Source of the DNA: Lachnospiraceae bacterium
GTDB lineage: Bacteria > Bacillota > Clostridia > Lachnospirales > Lachnospiraceae
Assembly: GCA_016281335.1 (NCBI GenBank)
Contig: JAEEIK010000105.1
Location: 1-43,006, forward strand
Length of the DNA stretch: 43,006 nt
Direction: 5' to 3'
In this document: positions 16,813-22,598 of the stretch, piece by piece
Numbering within the stretch: the first letter of the stretch is position 1
Layout: each line of letters opens with the position of its first letter
Made by a program: the position numbers and the translations under genes
Notes under the pieces: model-generated
What the model saw: only the letters and a program-made list of their open reading frames with translations
Told to the model about the DNA's origin: nothing
Databases searched by the model: none

Positions 16813-18753
16813 TTACAATTCCTCAAGCCAGAGATTTACAGTCGCATCACTGGGCATGCGCCAGTCTCCTCTCGGAGAAAGAGTGACCGAACCGACTTTA
16901 GGTCCGTCGGGCAGGCAGCTTCTTTTGAACTGCTGCGAGAAAAATCTCTTAAAGAATTTCCTTCCCGCATCCCTTACTTCATCCTCTGTCAGCTCCGGAT
17001 ATGCGCTCAGGGCATAGGCTGCACATCTGGCTGGTTCGAAACCGTAACGCAGAGTGTAATAAAGGAAGAAGTCATTCAGATCGTACTTTCCTATCTTCTC
17101 CTCCGTCTTCTGTGCGATCACGCCGTCTTTGTTAGGTGTCAGTTCCGGTGTGATAGGCGTATCACAGATATCAAGCAGTACTTTCGCAAGTCCGGCGTCC
17201 CCGCAGAACTGTGCATAGGATCTGCAGATAAACTTCACCAGCGTCTTCGGCACCGATGCATTCACCGCATACATAGACATGTGATCACCGTTATAGGTGC
17301 ACCAGCCGAGAGCCAGCTCCGACAGGTCTCCGGTACCGACCACCAGCGCGTTGTTCATATTTGCCGCATCCATCAGCAGATAGGTCCTCATCCTCGCCTG
17401 GGCATTTTCATATGCAACATCCCCCTCACCCATGTAGCCCGGCTCATGTCCCAGCTGTTTTAGATGCAGGTCTACACCTTCCTTGATGGCTATCTCATAC
17501 TCCTCATCAGCTAAGAGTCTCATCAGTTTCTTTGCGTTCTCATAGGTACGGCCGGAAGTATTGCCTTCGTTCGGCATCGTATATGCCATGATGCGTATAT
17601 CTTCTATAAGCTTCTTTGCTTCCGCGCAGACTATAAGCGCAAGGGTGGAATCCAGCCCGCCCGATATTCCTATCACCAGGTTCTTTATCCCGCTTGCCCT
17701 TACTCTTGTAGCCAGCCCGTTTGCCTGTATCTTAAGTATCATTCTGCATCTTTCATCCCTTGCATTGTTATCAGCCGGTACAAAAGGATTTCTTGGGATG
17801 AAGTGATCCTGTTCTTTTATGATCGCTGCCAGTTCTCCTATGCTGCATCTGTCTTTTCCCACAGACTGTATACTTACACCGACTCTCCTGTATTCACCGG
17901 CAGGATCATTCTCATATGTATTTTGTCTTCTTCTGTTATGCATGATGCAGCCAAGATCGATCAGCGCAGTTTCAGCATGCGGATATACAGGAAAAATGCT
18001 TTCTTTCAGCACGCTGCCGTTCTGCGCGATTATACTGTGTCCGGAAAACACCATATCAGTGCTGCTCTCATTTGTTCCTGCCGAAGAATAGATATATGCG
18101 CAGTAGCAGGAGCCGCTCTGCTGTTTGACAAGTTCCCGTCTGTATTCCTGTTTGCCTATCAGTTCATCCGAAGCAGAAAGGTTCGCGATCATATTTGCGC
18201 CGGCGAGGGCAGCATGAGTACTGGGTTTATCCGGCACCCACAGATCTTCGCACAGTTCAACTCCGAGTACGGCACCGGAAATCGGATCCTCCGCAAGTAT
18301 ATCGCTTCCGAAAGGAATATCTTCATTTCCTATCTTTATAACTCTTTCCTTCAGTCCCCTTCCTGATGCAAACCAGCGGCATTCATAGAACTCGCTGTAA
18401 TTCGGCAGGAAGGATTTCGGTATGACAGCTTTTATCTTTCCCTGTGAAAGCAGGGCAGCGCAATTGTATATGCAATTATCAAAACGAAGCGGCAATCCGA
18501 CCACCGCCGTTAATGCATATTTTTCGGTTTCTTTTGCAATGTCGGACAAAGCATTTTCCGAACTCTCAAGCAGCAATTCACTTTCGAAAAGATCTGCACA
18601 GGTATATCCGGTAATACTCAGTTCCGGAAATACCACCAGTCCGCATGTTTTCAGTTCTCTTATCATTTCGATGATACGCCCGGTATTGTACTTTACATCT
18701 CCGATCCTTAACTCAGGCACTGCAGCTGCCGCTTTGATAAGCTTATTTTTCAT
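16813..18753 (-). CDS. nadE: Glutamine-dependent NAD+ synthetase
   Basis: 646 residues from the ATG at 18753; a GTG at 18762 would add three but lies only four bases after AAGG. The N-terminal nitrilase-type glutaminase domain (about 1-270) has its Glu in FPELSITGY, Lys in PKSFLPNYSEFYE and Cys in GVELCEDLW. The C-terminal synthetase has the ATP-pyrophosphatase loop GISGGLDST, then GEGDVAYENAQARMR and ALGWCTYNGDHMSMY. It makes NAD+ from deamido-NAD, ATP and glutamine in the cytoplasm. Length and order fit the bacterial two-domain enzyme. It follows the PEP/pyruvate-binding gene by about 20 bases on the minus strand, so the two are probably co-transcribed. Confidence 0.96.
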   Translation of the reverse strand: MKNKLIKAAAAVPELRIGDVKYNTGRIIEMIRELKTCGLVVFPELSITGYTCADLFESELLLESSENALSDIAKETEKYALTAVVGLPLRFDNCIYNCAALLSQGKIKAVIPKSFLPNYSEFYECRWFASGRGLKERVIKIGNEDIPFGSDILAEDPISGAVLGVELCEDLWVPDKPSTHAALAGANMIANLSASDELIGKQEYRRELVKQQSGSCYCAYIYSSAGTNESSTDMVFSGHSIIAQNGSVLKESIFPVYPHAETALIDLGCIMHNRRRQNTYENDPAGEYRRVGVSIQSVGKDRCSIGELAAIIKEQDHFIPRNPFVPADNNARDERCRMILKIQANGLATRVRASGIKNLVIGISGGLDSTLALIVCAEAKKLIEDIRIMAYTMPNEGNTSGRTYENAKKLMRLLADEEYEIAIKEGVDLHLKQLGHEPGYMGEGDVAYENAQARMRTYLLMDAANMNNALVVGTGDLSELALGWCTYNGDHMSMYAVNASVPKTLVKFICRSYAQFCGDAGLAKVLLDICDTPITPELTPNKDGVIAQKTEEKIGKYDLNDFFLYYTLRYGFEPARCAAYALSAYPELTEDEVRDAGRKFFKRFFSQQFKRSCLPDGPKVGSVTLSPRGDWRMPSDATVNLWLEEL

Positions 18754-18775
18754 TTCATTCACCCGGCCTTTCTTT

Positions 18776-21352
18776 TCACTTGGTAAAAGCGATCACTAAA
18801 TGTTCGTTTGCTATATCGTTATATACCGCACACTTGCGGCTGCTTACATCATATACATGAACGATATCCTTAAGCATTTCCTTATCCTCGAAATCTCCGA
18901 CTATATCCGGAAAAGCTTCCAGTTTTTCCGGAGAGTAATGCAGAGTTTTTTCGTTGTGGAACACAGCAGTATAGAGTATCTGCGCTTCTACCAGATCCTG
19001 GAAGATATGGCTTCCGTAAGACAGTTCCGGATTATATCCTGCCTTTGTTTCCTCAGTCTCACATATCACTTCAAAAGCGCTGATATCCGAAAAAGTTGTG
19101 GGCACTCCGAGTTCGGGTGAAGAAGTTCCCACCCTTCCCGGAACTATCAGCATCAGATGCTTGTTCATATCACGATAATGCCAGCTGATCTTTGAGATCA
19201 GTCTTGCTGCCAGATCTTTTTCCTTATAAGGCATGTTGTAATATTTCACGGGATCAACAAGAACTATGATATCAAGCTCCGTGGTCCTGCACATTCCCAT
19301 GGATGCTCCTCTGCTCTCCAGCAGTATGTCAGTATCCTTTATTCCGGCAGGAACAACGGTACCGCCCTCTGTTTTCTGTACCTGCAGGGGCCTGCACTGC
19401 AGCAGGTCTACCGAGTATTCTCCGTTCTCCAAAATGTTGATCGTAAACTCCGTATCTACCGGATACTCATATTCCTCCTGTATGCAATGAAGCATCCTTC
19501 GCATCTTTTCCATCAGTTCTTTATTCGCTACGAGTCCTTTGCAGGATATGAATTTCACCTGCCTGCTGATGCCTCTTTCGTACAGCCGATTCTCTGCTTC
19601 ATAGTCATGCTCCAGCAGTATCTTATCCAGATACTTTGGCATATCTTTTTCCAATACATCCAGCGCGAATCTTTTCAGGGAACGTTCCTGCATGTTTATC
19701 ACTTCAGCCTTTCCCTGTGAGAACTTATGCTTGTCAGCGGAAGAAGAGTAGGAGGTCTTTTCCGGCATATCCAGATTGACTATCCTCGGATATGAACCTT
19801 CGGTGCGATCTACTGCCGAGGTTCCGAGTCCCATCACCAGTCTTAACATGCCTGCAGTCGGATCACTGTCCTTCATGATCCTGTATGGACTGTAGGAATA
19901 GCCCACACCTGCGGCGCAGGGCATGTAGTTCATTCCGTAATAGGATCCGGACACACGCTGTATCAGCAGCGCCATCTGTTCATCTCTCTTGTCAAGGCCG
20001 CGTCTTTTACGATAGTCAAGGGCCGAAAGGCTCATGGAACTTGCGTATACGATCTTGATCGCGTGCTCGAATTCTTCAAGACGTTCCTCGAGACTGCCCC
20101 TGTTCACGCAGAATACCGATTCATATTTACCTGCAAAGGCATTTCCGAAACCATCTTCCAGTATAGAGCTTGAACGTATGATATAGGGATCCTGCCCATA
20201 GTATTCGATGATCCTCACGAACTGTTCACGCATGGCCTCCGAGAAGACTCCCCCCATTATCCTGTTTGCAAATTCTTCTGCAAGGGTAAAGTATCCCTCT
20301 TCGGTACGCTGCTTTATCCTGGTATCCCAGAGATTGTTGTCAACGATATATGTATAGTAAAGATCGGAGCCTACATAGAAAGAGTCGTGGGGTTCCAGCA
20401 CTTCACTGATATCAGCTTCCTTATTTCTTATGATGGCTCTGGCCAGCAGCATGCCGCAGGCCTTGCCTCCTATCATACCTGTCCCCACCATGTGATCCCT
20501 TACCGCAAAATAATCTTCAGCAGTAAAATGCTTTTTAACCATCTCACGCATTTTGGCATCCCGGGTCATCATGATATTGCACATGGATATACAGTCCTCG
20601 GTGATATCCATTCCGTTTTCTCTCATAAGCTTTACGCGGTTAAAGAAACGGTCCCAGGAATCCGAATACTGTTCCTGGGCGGAACGCTGGGCTGCTCCGA
20701 GAGTCTGATAAAACCTGCTGGATCTCACTCCGTCAAGGATCGGTCTGAACTCTCCGCTTTCCGGATCATAGGTATGCGGAAGGAACATGGTATCTGAATT
20801 TCTGTTCCATACTTTTTCGGGACGTACATAGATATTCTTTTTATCGGAATATACATCAAAGAAAAGCTGGGTGGTATTCAGTATCTTGTTGATAGCCTGT
20901 ACCGAATGCTTTCCCCTGATGATCGGAAAGAACGCCACGGTATCAAGTATAAAGAGAAAAGGACAGGTCACTCTGAAGAAATTTCCCATCATCAGGTCCG
21001 TGGCCCAGGCGGTCTGCAGTTCCGACAGGCAGTCGAAAACATAGAAGGCATCCTTTCCTTCCTTTTCTATCACATTATGGATATCAACAGTGAAGTTCTC
21101 AAAGCGATGAGAAAGAGCCACTTCAACTGTTTTTATTTCAGGCCTGTCCTCTATCAGCCGTTCGTGACTTGCGAAACGGAAGTAAATGATATTTCGTTTG
21201 TCCTCTATGGCCTGCTTTACATAGGGTTCCATGAAAAGCTTAAACTCGGACAGCTCCGACACACGCCACACCACGTTATCACCGAGCCTGATATTATCAA
21301 GGGCCGTATCCATCTCCGGTATTCCGCTCTTTACTCTGTCAAAAGCTGCCAT
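18776..21352 (-). CDS. PEP/pyruvate-binding (PPDK N-terminal) domain protein with degenerate RecA/KaiC-like N-terminus
   Basis: 858 residues from the ATG at 21352, which has GGAGG seven bases upstream. Upstream in-frame codons run through a terminator hairpin and are rejected as coding. Residues about 1-230 resemble a KaiC/RecA-like fold (KSGIPEMDTALDNIRLGDNVVWRV, AFYVFDCLSEL) but lack a GxxxxGK[ST] loop. Residues about 300-690 carry the ATP-grasp PEP/pyruvate-binding domain: GGKACGMLLARA, IIRSSSILEDGFGNAFAGKYESV, MGLGTSAVDRTEGSYPR, and closing TEFTINI...DLLQCRPLQVQ. The swivelling phosphohistidine domain and PEP-binding barrel of PEP synthase or PPDK are absent; the last 170 residues are unassigned. 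So it is unlikely to be a complete PEP synthase. It is divergent from the RelA/SpoT-like gene and leads an operon with nadE. Confidence 0.9.
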   Translation of the reverse strand: MAAFDRVKSGIPEMDTALDNIRLGDNVVWRVSELSEFKLFMEPYVKQAIEDKRNIIYFRFASHERLIEDRPEIKTVEVALSHRFENFTVDIHNVIEKEGKDAFYVFDCLSELQTAWATDLMMGNFFRVTCPFLFILDTVAFFPIIRGKHSVQAINKILNTTQLFFDVYSDKKNIYVRPEKVWNRNSDTMFLPHTYDPESGEFRPILDGVRSSRFYQTLGAAQRSAQEQYSDSWDRFFNRVKLMRENGMDITEDCISMCNIMMTRDAKMREMVKKHFTAEDYFAVRDHMVGTGMIGGKACGMLLARAIIRNKEADISEVLEPHDSFYVGSDLYYTYIVDNNLWDTRIKQRTEEGYFTLAEEFANRIMGGVFSEAMREQFVRIIEYYGQDPYIIRSSSILEDGFGNAFAGKYESVFCVNRGSLEERLEEFEHAIKIVYASSMSLSALDYRKRRGLDKRDEQMALLIQRVSGSYYGMNYMPCAAGVGYSYSPYRIMKDSDPTAGMLRLVMGLGTSAVDRTEGSYPRIVNLDMPEKTSYSSSADKHKFSQGKAEVINMQERSLKRFALDVLEKDMPKYLDKILLEHDYEAENRLYERGISRQVKFISCKGLVANKELMEKMRRMLHCIQEEYEYPVDTEFTINILENGEYSVDLLQCRPLQVQKTEGGTVVPAGIKDTDILLESRGASMGMCRTTELDIIVLVDPVKYYNMPYKEKDLAARLISKISWHYRDMNKHLMLIVPGRVGTSSPELGVPTTFSDISAFEVICETEETKAGYNPELSYGSHIFQDLVEAQILYTAVFHNEKTLHYSPEKLEAFPDIVGDFEDKEMLKDIVHVYDVSSRKCAVYNDIANEHLVIAFTK

Positions 21353-21372
21353 CACCCTGCCTCCGATCTGAC

Positions 21373-21416
21373 AAAAAAAGGGCGCTCCATCCAAACGGAT
21401 GAAACGCCTTTGCTTC
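21373..21416 (-). promoter_or_regulatory. Attenuator (terminator/antiterminator) in the leader of the PPDK-like gene
   Basis: Read on the minus strand, GGCGTTTCATCC and GGATGGAGCGCC form a hairpin (outer GGCG/CGCC, inner CATCC/GGATG) followed by CTTTTTTT, an intrinsic terminator 20 bases before the gene start. Just before it GAAGC (21412-21416) can pair with GTTTC (21401-21405) across the 5' arm, giving a competing hairpin. The same element, with a compensated base-pair change, lies in the opposite leader at 21521-21559. Confidence 0.7.
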
Positions 21417-21429
21417 ATGCTCCGATTAG

Positions 21430-21458
21430 ATACTAACATTTATCACGGCGGATTGCAA
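21430..21458 (-). promoter_or_regulatory. Putative promoter of the PPDK-like/nadE operon
   Basis: On the minus strand TTGCAA (21458-21453), a 17-base spacer and TAGTAT (21435-21430). The predicted transcript would start near 21423, giving a leader of about 70 bases that contains the attenuator. Confidence 0.5.
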
Positions 21459-21463
21459 TATCA

Positions 21464-21524
21464 GATTTACGAAATAACTTGCGTTTCGCTCGCAAAAATG
21501 ATAGGATTTATACGATTTACGAAA
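21464..21524. repeat. Direct repeat GATTTACGAAA in the divergent intergenic region
   Basis: The 11-base sequence GATTTACGAAA occurs at 21464-21474 and 21514-21524, 50 bases apart. Between the copies is an inverted repeat TTGCG/CGCAA. The repeats flank the plus-strand promoter and could be regulator sites or the remains of a local duplication. Confidence 0.6.
21479..21507 (+). promoter_or_regulatory. Putative promoter of the RelA/SpoT-like gene
   Basis: TTGCGT (21479-21484), a 17-base spacer and TAGGAT (21502-21507). Transcription would begin near 21514 and give a leader of about 65 bases, mirroring the opposite promoter in both strength and leader length. Confidence 0.45.
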
Positions 21525-21559
21525 CAAAGGCGTTTCATCTCGGAGATGGAGCGCCTTTT
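21521..21559 (+). promoter_or_regulatory. Attenuator (terminator/antiterminator) in the leader of the RelA/SpoT-like gene
   Basis: AAAGGCG pairs with CGCCTTT and, inside, CATCT pairs with AGATG; TTTT follows. GAAAC (21521-21525) can instead pair with GTTTC (21532-21536), disrupting the terminator. CAAAGGCGTTTCATC and GATGGAGCGCC are identical to the copy in the opposite leader, and the inner T-A pair here is C-G there. Confidence 0.65.
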
Positions 21560-21578
21560 GTATTATGAGGAGTTTAAA

Positions 21579-22598
21579 ATGATCTCATTAAACGATTATC
21601 TGTATTCCGGTGATACGGTGCTAAAGATACTGCTGCGTTATTCCGACGATCTGAAAAAAGAAGCGATAGGCAGCGGCAATGCCATAGACCTTGCACACAG
21701 CAACTTCCTGATCCAGATCATAGAGCAGCTGGAACATACGGATTTTCTGACCTCACAGTCCAACAGGATCAAGGAGTTTTACCTGTATATGACACAGAAG
21801 TATCCCTTCTTGGCCTTCACCTTCAAGGGCAGGATCAAGTCCCTTATACGCGCCGAGGAAAAGTTCAATGCCTATGTGCTTGAGTATATATATGAGTATT
21901 ACAGGACCAACGGAAAGTTTCCGACAGATACCGAGATCAAGAGCAATATCAACTGCTTCAGGGATCTGATCGCCTACCGCATCGTTGTCTCTTTACCGGT
22001 ATGTCATGTATCGCCGGAAGAAAGCCTTGAAGATCAGGAGACAAAATATCTTTATGAGATAGCAAACATCCTGCCCGCCTTTCTTGAAGAACGTGGCTTC
22101 ACGCCGGAACTCTCAGGACATCAGAATCCGGAATACGCCGGCGCGCTAAGTGATAGTGTCCGTCAATATTACAGAGATTACGTACGTACTCCCCGTCCTT
22201 CAGGCTACCGTTCACTCCATATCACTTTTTATGATAATCATGCGAGATGTTTTACTGAAGTGCAGCTACGTACAAAAGATATGGATGACTTCGCCGAGAT
22301 CGGCGCCGCCAATCACTTCGGTTATGAGAAAAAGCAGGAAGAACATCGTGTTAAGCGGGATATCATTCAGCCGGGTGAGTGCAGGGTTTTTGATGAAGCA
22401 TATGAGAGACTGATCAAACTGCTGGAGCTTGACCTTGCCAAAGTCAACGTCAACATGTTCAAGGCTTTCAACAACCAGCTGATCAACGACGGCTGCGGTC
22501 TGTTCCGAGGCAGACAGATACAGCCTTTCGAGCATTTATCGAGATTTCAGTATGATCCTATATCCGATTATCATCTCTCATTGACGGAAAAACAATAA
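21579..22598 (+). CDS. RelA/SpoT synthetase-domain protein (putative small alarmone synthetase)
   Basis: 339 residues from the ATG at 21579, preceded by GAGGAG; the frame is open further upstream but runs through the attenuator. A helical N-terminus of about 75 residues precedes a RelA/SpoT nucleotidyltransferase domain: FKGRIKSLIRAEEKF (about 82-96), FRDLIAYRIV with Asp129, TPRPSGYRSLHITF for the GTP-binding loop, and EVQLRTKDMDDFAEIGAANH with Glu227. These match the metal and nucleotide residues of (p)ppGpp synthetases. There is no HD hydrolase, TGS or ACT domain, so it is synthetase-only, expected to transfer pyrophosphate from ATP to GDP/GTP. The insert between Asp129 and the SGYRSLH motif is long. 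It is divergent from a nucleotide-binding PPDK-like gene and shares a leader element with it. Confidence 0.88.
   Translation: MISLNDYLYSGDTVLKILLRYSDDLKKEAIGSGNAIDLAHSNFLIQIIEQLEHTDFLTSQSNRIKEFYLYMTQKYPFLAFTFKGRIKSLIRAEEKFNAYVLEYIYEYYRTNGKFPTDTEIKSNINCFRDLIAYRIVVSLPVCHVSPEESLEDQETKYLYEIANILPAFLEERGFTPELSGHQNPEYAGALSDSVRQYYRDYVRTPRPSGYRSLHITFYDNHARCFTEVQLRTKDMDDFAEIGAANHFGYEKKQEEHRVKRDIIQPGECRVFDEAYERLIKLLELDLAKVNVNMFKAFNNQLINDGCGLFRGRQIQPFEHLSRFQYDPISDYHLSLTEKQ

Follow-up and report, generated by a model that had tools for sequence, protein, structure and literature searches.

Divergent single-hexaloop leaders, probably of the ANTAR antitermination type, before a RelA/SpoT-like gene and a PPDK_N–NAD synthase operon

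The PPDK_N-domain gene and the RelA/SpoT-like gene (rel) that diverge in the analysed stretch of DNA (43,006 nt in all, hereafter the window) very probably belong to a nitrogen regulon and each start with an antitermination leader of the ANTAR type, which carries a single hexaloop near the transcript start; as part of the same reading, the regulon takes in both an alarmone-synthetase-like gene and an NAD-synthetase operon. The two leaders sit between PPDK_N (21352-18776, minus strand) and rel (21579-22598, plus strand) in a Lachnospiraceae draft genome of 3.23 Mb in 159 contigs. Soon after transcription start, the RNA could fold into a hairpin of 5-7 bp that closes a six-base loop (A at position 1, G at position 4). 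If this hairpin were left unheld, its 3' arm would be captured by a longer terminator hairpin and transcription would stop before the gene. Binding of an ANTAR protein to the hexaloop, most likely of one encoded beside a glutamine synthetase gene, would prevent the terminator from forming, and the PPDK_N–nadE operon and rel would be transcribed, together with glmS and asnB-glnN-amt. What sequence analysis brings out is two mutually exclusive structures, their covariation, their recurrence, the genes behind them and their co-occurrence with ANTAR genes. The features of the window are as follows.

16813..18762, minus strand: NAD synthase gene with a CN_hydrolase (amidase) domain, 13 nt after PPDK_N (domain scan)
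18776..21352, minus strand: gene for the PPDK_N-domain protein, 858 aa (Pfam PF01326 at residues 293-662 only)
21453..21458, minus strand: -35-like box TTGCAA of the PPDK_N promoter (weak match in promoter scoring, missed by the general scan; same in L083)
21430..21435, minus strand: -10-like box TAGTAT of the PPDK_N promoter, spacer 17 (promoter scoring; missed by the general scan)
21412..21418, minus strand: 5' arm ATGAAGC of the antiterminator (P2-like) hairpin, PPDK_N leader (leader scan)
21406..21411, minus strand: hexaloop AAAGGC (A1, G4), PPDK_N leader (leader scan; loop signature from the accessible part of PMC3369931)
21399..21405, minus strand: antiterminator 3' arm GTTTCAT, common with the terminator 5' arm, PPDK_N leader (leader scan)
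21373..21408, minus strand: intrinsic terminator of the PPDK_N leader, stem-loop 21408-21381, then CTTTTTTT (folding and pattern search)
21479..21484, plus strand: -35-like box TTGCGT of the rel promoter (by eye; below the promoter-scoring cut-off; same in L083)
21502..21507, plus strand: -10-like box TAGGAT of the rel promoter, spacer 17 (by eye; below the promoter-scoring cut-off)
21521..21525, plus strand: antiterminator 5' arm GAAAC, rel leader (leader scan)
21526..21531, plus strand: hexaloop AAAGGC (A1, G4), rel leader (leader scan)
21532..21536, plus strand: antiterminator 3' arm GTTTC, common with the terminator, rel leader (leader scan)
21529..21559, plus strand: intrinsic terminator of the rel leader, stem-loop 21529-21555, then TTTT (folding and pattern search)
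21579..22598, plus strand: RelA/SpoT-like gene (rel), 339 aa (Pfam PF04607, profile positions 51-112 of 113)

Longer in-frame ORFs start upstream of both hairpins, and short ORFs, considered as possible leader peptides, cross both leaders; the ATG codons at 21352 and 21579 were taken as starts because orthologues align from there and a ribosome-binding-site-like stretch, judged by eye, precedes each. The RelA/SpoT-like protein aligns to solved Rel proteins at residues 197-252, in its C-terminal half, and the motifs GYxSxH, ExQxRT and AExGxAxH are present; in its N-terminal half, synthetase motifs were judged by eye only. The best named PPDK_N orthologues are mostly from rumen Lachnospiraceae. 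Residues 1-292 and 663-858 of the 858-aa protein gave no Pfam match.

Both hairpins predicted by the initial annotation are present (21408-21381 on the minus strand and 21529-21555 on the plus strand), and their apical stems differ as it had described (CATCT/AGATG versus CATCC/GGATG). It had placed four to seven T after them; a T tract does follow both, CTTTTTTT on the minus strand and TTTTG on the plus strand, where the tract is four T and then a G. The folding energies of -20.8 or -21.7 kcal/mol compare with shuffle means of -8.6 and -8.2 (z -4.9 and -5.6), and 0/200 shuffles folded as stably for either hairpin. The pairing foreseen for GAAAC or GAAGC holds as well: GAAGC (21416-21412, minus) and GAAAC (21521-21525, plus) can pair with GUUUC of the 5' arm and close an exact six-base loop AAAGGC, giving an alternative hairpin with a 5-7 bp stem that is built from the terminator 5' arm. 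The promoters had been put 20-70 bases upstream with boxes of the TTG-17-TA form; such boxes exist on both strands as weak matches, neither of which the general scan reports and both of which recur in the same-genus relative L083, while the distance is 13 nt on both sides, from the -10-like box to the 5-bp alternative stem. The single attenuator proposed to serve both genes was rejected, since two complete promoter–leader units were found, members of a wider leader set that belongs mainly to nitrogen-metabolism genes. The PPDK_N and rel hairpins are two separate copies of one leader type, and these are the two exact-pattern copies in the whole genome, to which a structure model adds two further clear ones. 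An Rfam element was also considered as the identity of the leaders and dropped, as no leader or riboswitch reached the gathering cut-off anywhere in the window; with E values up to 5, the region 21340-21600 gave five matches, all far below cut-off (the best, to a miRNA family, with 29.6 bits versus 171).

Covariation was assessed in two sets of sites. In the first (A2), none of 500 shuffles came up to the terminator (12 bp) or to the alternative stem (5 bp) in cells paired and in cells changed on both sides; this result is biased in favour, as A2 comprises 51 of 69 listed sites, all of which were picked for having at least 4 bp of alternative stem. On the measure that counts pairs changed on both sides, 66/500 shuffles did as well. 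Because these sites had been picked partly on the alternative stem, the test was repeated on 60 sites supplied by the covariance model R1, which scores the terminator pairs and not the alternative stem. In this second set, which keeps near-identical rows and one site (L159) that looks like a plain terminator, 272 of the 300 alternative-stem positions pair (shuffle mean 225, sd 4.2, maximum 240 in 2000 shuffles), and the stem is fully paired at 36/60 sites (shuffle mean 12.5, maximum 23). The alternative stems vary (GAAAC/GUUUC, UGAGAC/GUCUCG, UAAAGC/GCUUUG, CAGGC/GCCUG and others) while the loop stays near A-A-N-G-G-C across sites. At the model-found sites the loop has A1 in 58/60 and G4 in 60/60, with a model that itself favours AAAGGC, and the letters of the loop alone are weak evidence because the A tract of the terminator and GGC force part of it.

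These data bear on whether the hairpins regulate at all. Partial terminators, or 5' stems that protect the mRNA, could fix the expression level with the alternative stem as a by-product, in keeping with the short U tract of the plus copy (T4) and with a terminator that itself accounts for much of the sequence conservation. Such unregulated hairpins are nevertheless very improbable, given that covariation with the shared arm extends to the upstream arm, which has no part in the terminator, and that the loop size is fixed at six; on these alignments, neither feature is explained by the constraint of the terminator. Since both alternative structures covary, both look selected, which bears out the initial suggestion of terminator/antiterminator leaders under selection.

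Homologous hairpins upstream of orthologues had been named beforehand as a test of that suggestion, and they were found. Among the best 80 of 576 PPDK_N relatives, 48 loci carry a hexaloop–terminator leader under one set rule, which asks for A or G in loop position 1 and G in position 4, a stem of at least 4, an overlapping terminator of at least 7 pairs, and a distance of at most 400 nt from PPDK_N or 250 nt from a preceding rel gene; the counts for loops of 4, 5, 7 and 8 are 4, 0, 3 and 4. The upstream DNA is shorter than 150 nt at three of the 80 loci, and among the 32 misses some do carry a leader that the rule skips (L019, L007). Leaders occur in cultured species too, at L020 and L026, with Eubacterium ruminantium ATCC 17233 and Eubacterium oxidoreducens DSM 3217 as carriers. 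In the first loci, an alternative stem of at least 5 bp with a loop of six was seen at 42/89 terminators and any other single loop size at 0-13, the window pair being included twice in the 89 (via L001 and L002). With a looser 4-bp rule, loop 8 was as frequent as loop 6 (30 each in the 35 loci with a terminator within 150 nt) and loops 9 and 10 occurred at 18 and 13 loci; loop 8 here mostly represents the hexaloop hairpin minus its closing pair, and stricter rules separate the sizes. An exact-pattern search in relatives, which returned the own genome and 1/59 others, was too strict and was replaced by R1.

A rel homologue stands at 17 of the 80 PPDK_N loci, always on the PPDK_N strand and in 16 cases within 140 nt, and the divergent arrangement was seen only in the window and in G024 (L083). 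Because the leader precedes rel, the first gene, in L023, L026, L030, L036, L063, L066 and L067, and because PPDK_N and rel each have their own leader where they diverge, common control of the two genes appears to have been kept through rearrangement. Such linkage would also suit an attenuator private to the divergent pair, as the initial annotation saw it. That view is contradicted by the regulon search, which found the same leader before genes for glutamine synthetase III (GS III), Amt, glutamate synthase, asparagine synthase, CTP synthase and PurF-type and GlmS-type proteins, and we consider it scarcely credible.

The search was made with R1, a model trained mostly on PPDK_N/Rel leaders. 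In the own genome it scored PPDK_N with 56.5 bits and Rel with 55.0, followed by an asparagine-synthase gene that precedes GS III and an Amt–P-II fusion (asnB-glnN-amt, 40.1 bits) and by a GlmS-type gene (glmS, 39.4 bits); the weaker matches are plain terminators or doubtful. Two candidates, C140:12902 (30.9 bits) and L159, were rejected as leaders, having no hexaloop stem and looking like plain terminators. Across the genus, 30/34 genomes have a match at E values up to 0.02, and nitrogen genes make up 14/20 of the downstream genes scanned (29 new loci fetched), namely GS III (4), GATase_2 (4, taken as glutamate synthase starts), PurF-type (2), CTP synthase (2), and Amt or P-II, the remainder being PPDK_N, a class-III aminotransferase, a RidA-type protein, an ABC ATPase, a GDSL lipase and an AraC regulator. 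In the class, where 63/293 genomes have a match, the share is 18/22 (29 new loci), with GS III (10), Amt (5), and P-II, a glutamate synthase start or GS I, next to PPDK_N, an amino-acid permease, CP_ATPgrasp and ATP synthase A. In other Clostridia the leaders thus appear to precede nitrogen genes for the most part, among them those of glutamine synthetase III and the ammonium transporter. Glutamine-using enzymes recur behind the leaders, and the NAD synthase of the window carries the CN_hydrolase domain that is usual in glutamine-dependent NAD synthetases.

Some single sites deserve mention. The ammonium transporter of the own genome (L097:15841-17595) is fused to a C-terminal P-II domain. The CTP synthase-type leaders at L116, L123 and L124 have only a 3-bp stem, GGC[AAAGGC]GCC, a weak form of the element. 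A weak match of 21.3 bits at G000:C79:7663-7708 (L093), GAAAC[AAGGGG]GTTTC before a periplasmic-binding-protein gene, is possibly a further member of the regulon.

There are two genes for ANTAR proteins in the own genome, both of which follow directly on a glutamine synthetase gene, and a GS I-like stretch lies just upstream of the ANTAR gene in 20/20 fetched genus loci (33 matches listed). In Clostridium saccharobutylicum, the gene for the ANTAR-type GlnR likewise adjoins that for glutamine synthetase (glnA-glnR), and antitermination of nitrogen genes has been proposed. ANTAR genes occur in 54/63 model-positive and 102/230 model-negative class genomes (Fisher p 1.9e-9, a test that ignores phylogeny, as do those below), in a search that scored only 20 candidates per genome, so that model-negative genomes may be false negatives. 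In 50 of the 80 PPDK_N genomes, the same comparison gives 36/42 versus 2/8 (p 0.0013), and for the leader at PPDK_N itself no significant correlation was found in these 50 genomes (24/28 versus 14/22, p 0.099). Within the genus, a model match is present in 29/31 genomes with an ANTAR gene and in 1/3 without. Leaders also lie within 20 kb of an ANTAR gene in 16/45 class genomes (1.1 expected) and 7/29 genus genomes (1.2 expected), counted from the ANTAR positions listed rather than from all positions.

Both ANTAR proteins of the own genome (L084:1486-2028 and L085:1486-2067, minus strand) can be aligned with EutV, NasR or Rv1626, and HMMER alignments of the two place G or N opposite the receiver Asp; the phospho-acceptor column of the MAFFT alignment was out of register and was left unused. 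With G or N at this position, the input to the GlnA-linked ANTAR proteins is perhaps not phosphorylation. EutV Met172 is kept in 21/21 proteins (the own two and those of 19 genus loci), whereas Tyr164 is His in 19/21 and K143 is mostly Ala.

The same switch could have another reader of the hexaloop, such as an unrelated RNA-binding protein, glutamine synthetase or P-II, or a small ligand, with ANTAR genes merely travelling with nitrogen genes. The altered contact residues and the single rather than dual hexaloop speak for this, as do model-positive genomes in which an ANTAR gene was not detected (9 in the class and 6 of the 50 PPDK_N genomes), above all G303, which is 99% complete and has a convincing GS III leader; two ANTAR-bearing genus genomes (G004, G005) in turn gave no model match. 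We consider another reader unlikely, as the loop fits the ANTAR signature, ANTAR genes co-occur with the leaders and lie near them, and Met172 is invariant. The initial suggestion of an RNA-binding antiterminator is probably right, and the leader type resembles ANTAR targets. Under ANTAR antitermination, for which we infer the binding, the direction of control and the sensing step, our guess, which we hold to be somewhat more likely than not, is that expression would rise under nitrogen or glutamine limitation.

The leaders had at first been said to match no known element, which the analysis does not support: the accessible parts of PMC3369931 and PMC8934654 describe the P2 element of ANTAR targets as a six-base loop with A1 and G4 overlapping a terminator, and the regulons of ANTAR proteins as mostly nitrogen-related. 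Here too the hexaloop has A1 and G4, its hairpin overlaps the terminator 5' arm and excludes the terminator, the genes are mainly nitrogen genes, and the genome has two ANTAR proteins (with exceptions in other genomes). The dual-hexaloop targets described there (eut/EutV, nasF/NasR, AmiR) differ in that EutV antitermination needs both hexaloops at suitable spacing (PMC8934654), dual stem loops being described in the accessible part of PMC8164766 as well, whereas here there is one hexaloop, starting about 11-16 nt after the -10 box, and the ANTAR proteins of the own genome carry G or N in place of the receiver Asp. Up to 130 nt upstream, a further hexaloop was found in 2/45 PPDK_N/Rel leaders (shuffle mean 1.1), in neither window leader, and in 3/54 other sites (shuffle mean 0.64; the list leaves out L099, L101, L112, L118, L159 and L176), where those of L165 and of the own glmS leader (L091) appear genuine. 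In the PPDK_N/Rel leaders with a promoter-like match (40/45), the alternative stem starts a median of 16 nt after the -10 box, and in the other sites with one (43/54) a median of 11 nt after it, so near that there is little room for another upstream hairpin. The leaders thus fall outside the dual-hexaloop class on one tested feature, and the conclusion that they would work like an ANTAR antiterminator stands. The own GlmS-type leader, G000:C77:37183-37231 (L091:1464-1540), has TGTC[AATGGC]GACA and AAGGC[AAAGGC]GTCTT about 35 nt apart and by its sequence is a canonical dual ANTAR-type leader in the same genome. The RAT antiterminators of BglG/SacY are alike in that one hairpin excludes a terminator; according to the accessible part of PMC3369931 they span 29-30 nt with another sequence, compared with about 16-20 nt and a fixed hexaloop here. 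In E. coli, NtrC activates relA (accessible part of PMC4066584), so that a nitrogen regulator again acts on an alarmone synthetase gene; NtrC is an unrelated regulator and a sigma54 activator at the DNA level, whereas RNA antitermination is predicted here.

A wider proposal, whose chances we put as even, is that many Clostridia have a nitrogen/glutamine regulon under a reduced form of ANTAR antitermination, with one hexaloop at the 5' end and a GS-linked ANTAR protein lacking the phospho-acceptor, and that it includes the alarmone-synthetase-like gene and PPDK_N, coupling nitrogen status to the stringent response at the RNA level and independently of NtrC–relA. Among the matches listed in the open literature, subscription papers being mostly outside it, nothing was found on a single-hexaloop regulon, on ANTAR control in Lachnospiraceae or on an ANTAR–ppGpp link; some of these leaders may already be listed in the supplementary hit tables of PMC3369931. 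The published ANTAR searches, as far as their accessible text describes them, modelled the dual stem-loop, and a single-hexaloop regulon could therefore escape them. Why EutV needs two hexaloops was left open in the accessible EutV work, and leaders with one hexaloop near the transcription start make that need directly testable. The regulon suggests an RNA-based route from nitrogen status to alarmone synthesis in rumen and gut bacteria, and it would give the PPDK_N–Rel gene pair its first functional context.

A few further observations concern individual loci. Tandem hexaloop–terminator units about 90 nt apart occur on the minus strand at L073:1240-1379, L075:2663-2802 and L079:2660-2800. In L148, the first ORF after the leader joins N-terminal and C-terminal PPDK_N-like pieces, as if the middle of the gene were missing. 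At L031, L035, L038, L046, L047, L049, L051 and L057, another conserved element, GCATTATT...TATGCCGAGAAAGTATGCC...TTTGCNTTTATACT, lies about 80-10 nt upstream of PPDK_N in place of the hexaloop leader; no ANTAR gene was found in 7/7 of these genomes searched (L057 being outside this set), and the element may be the site of another regulator.
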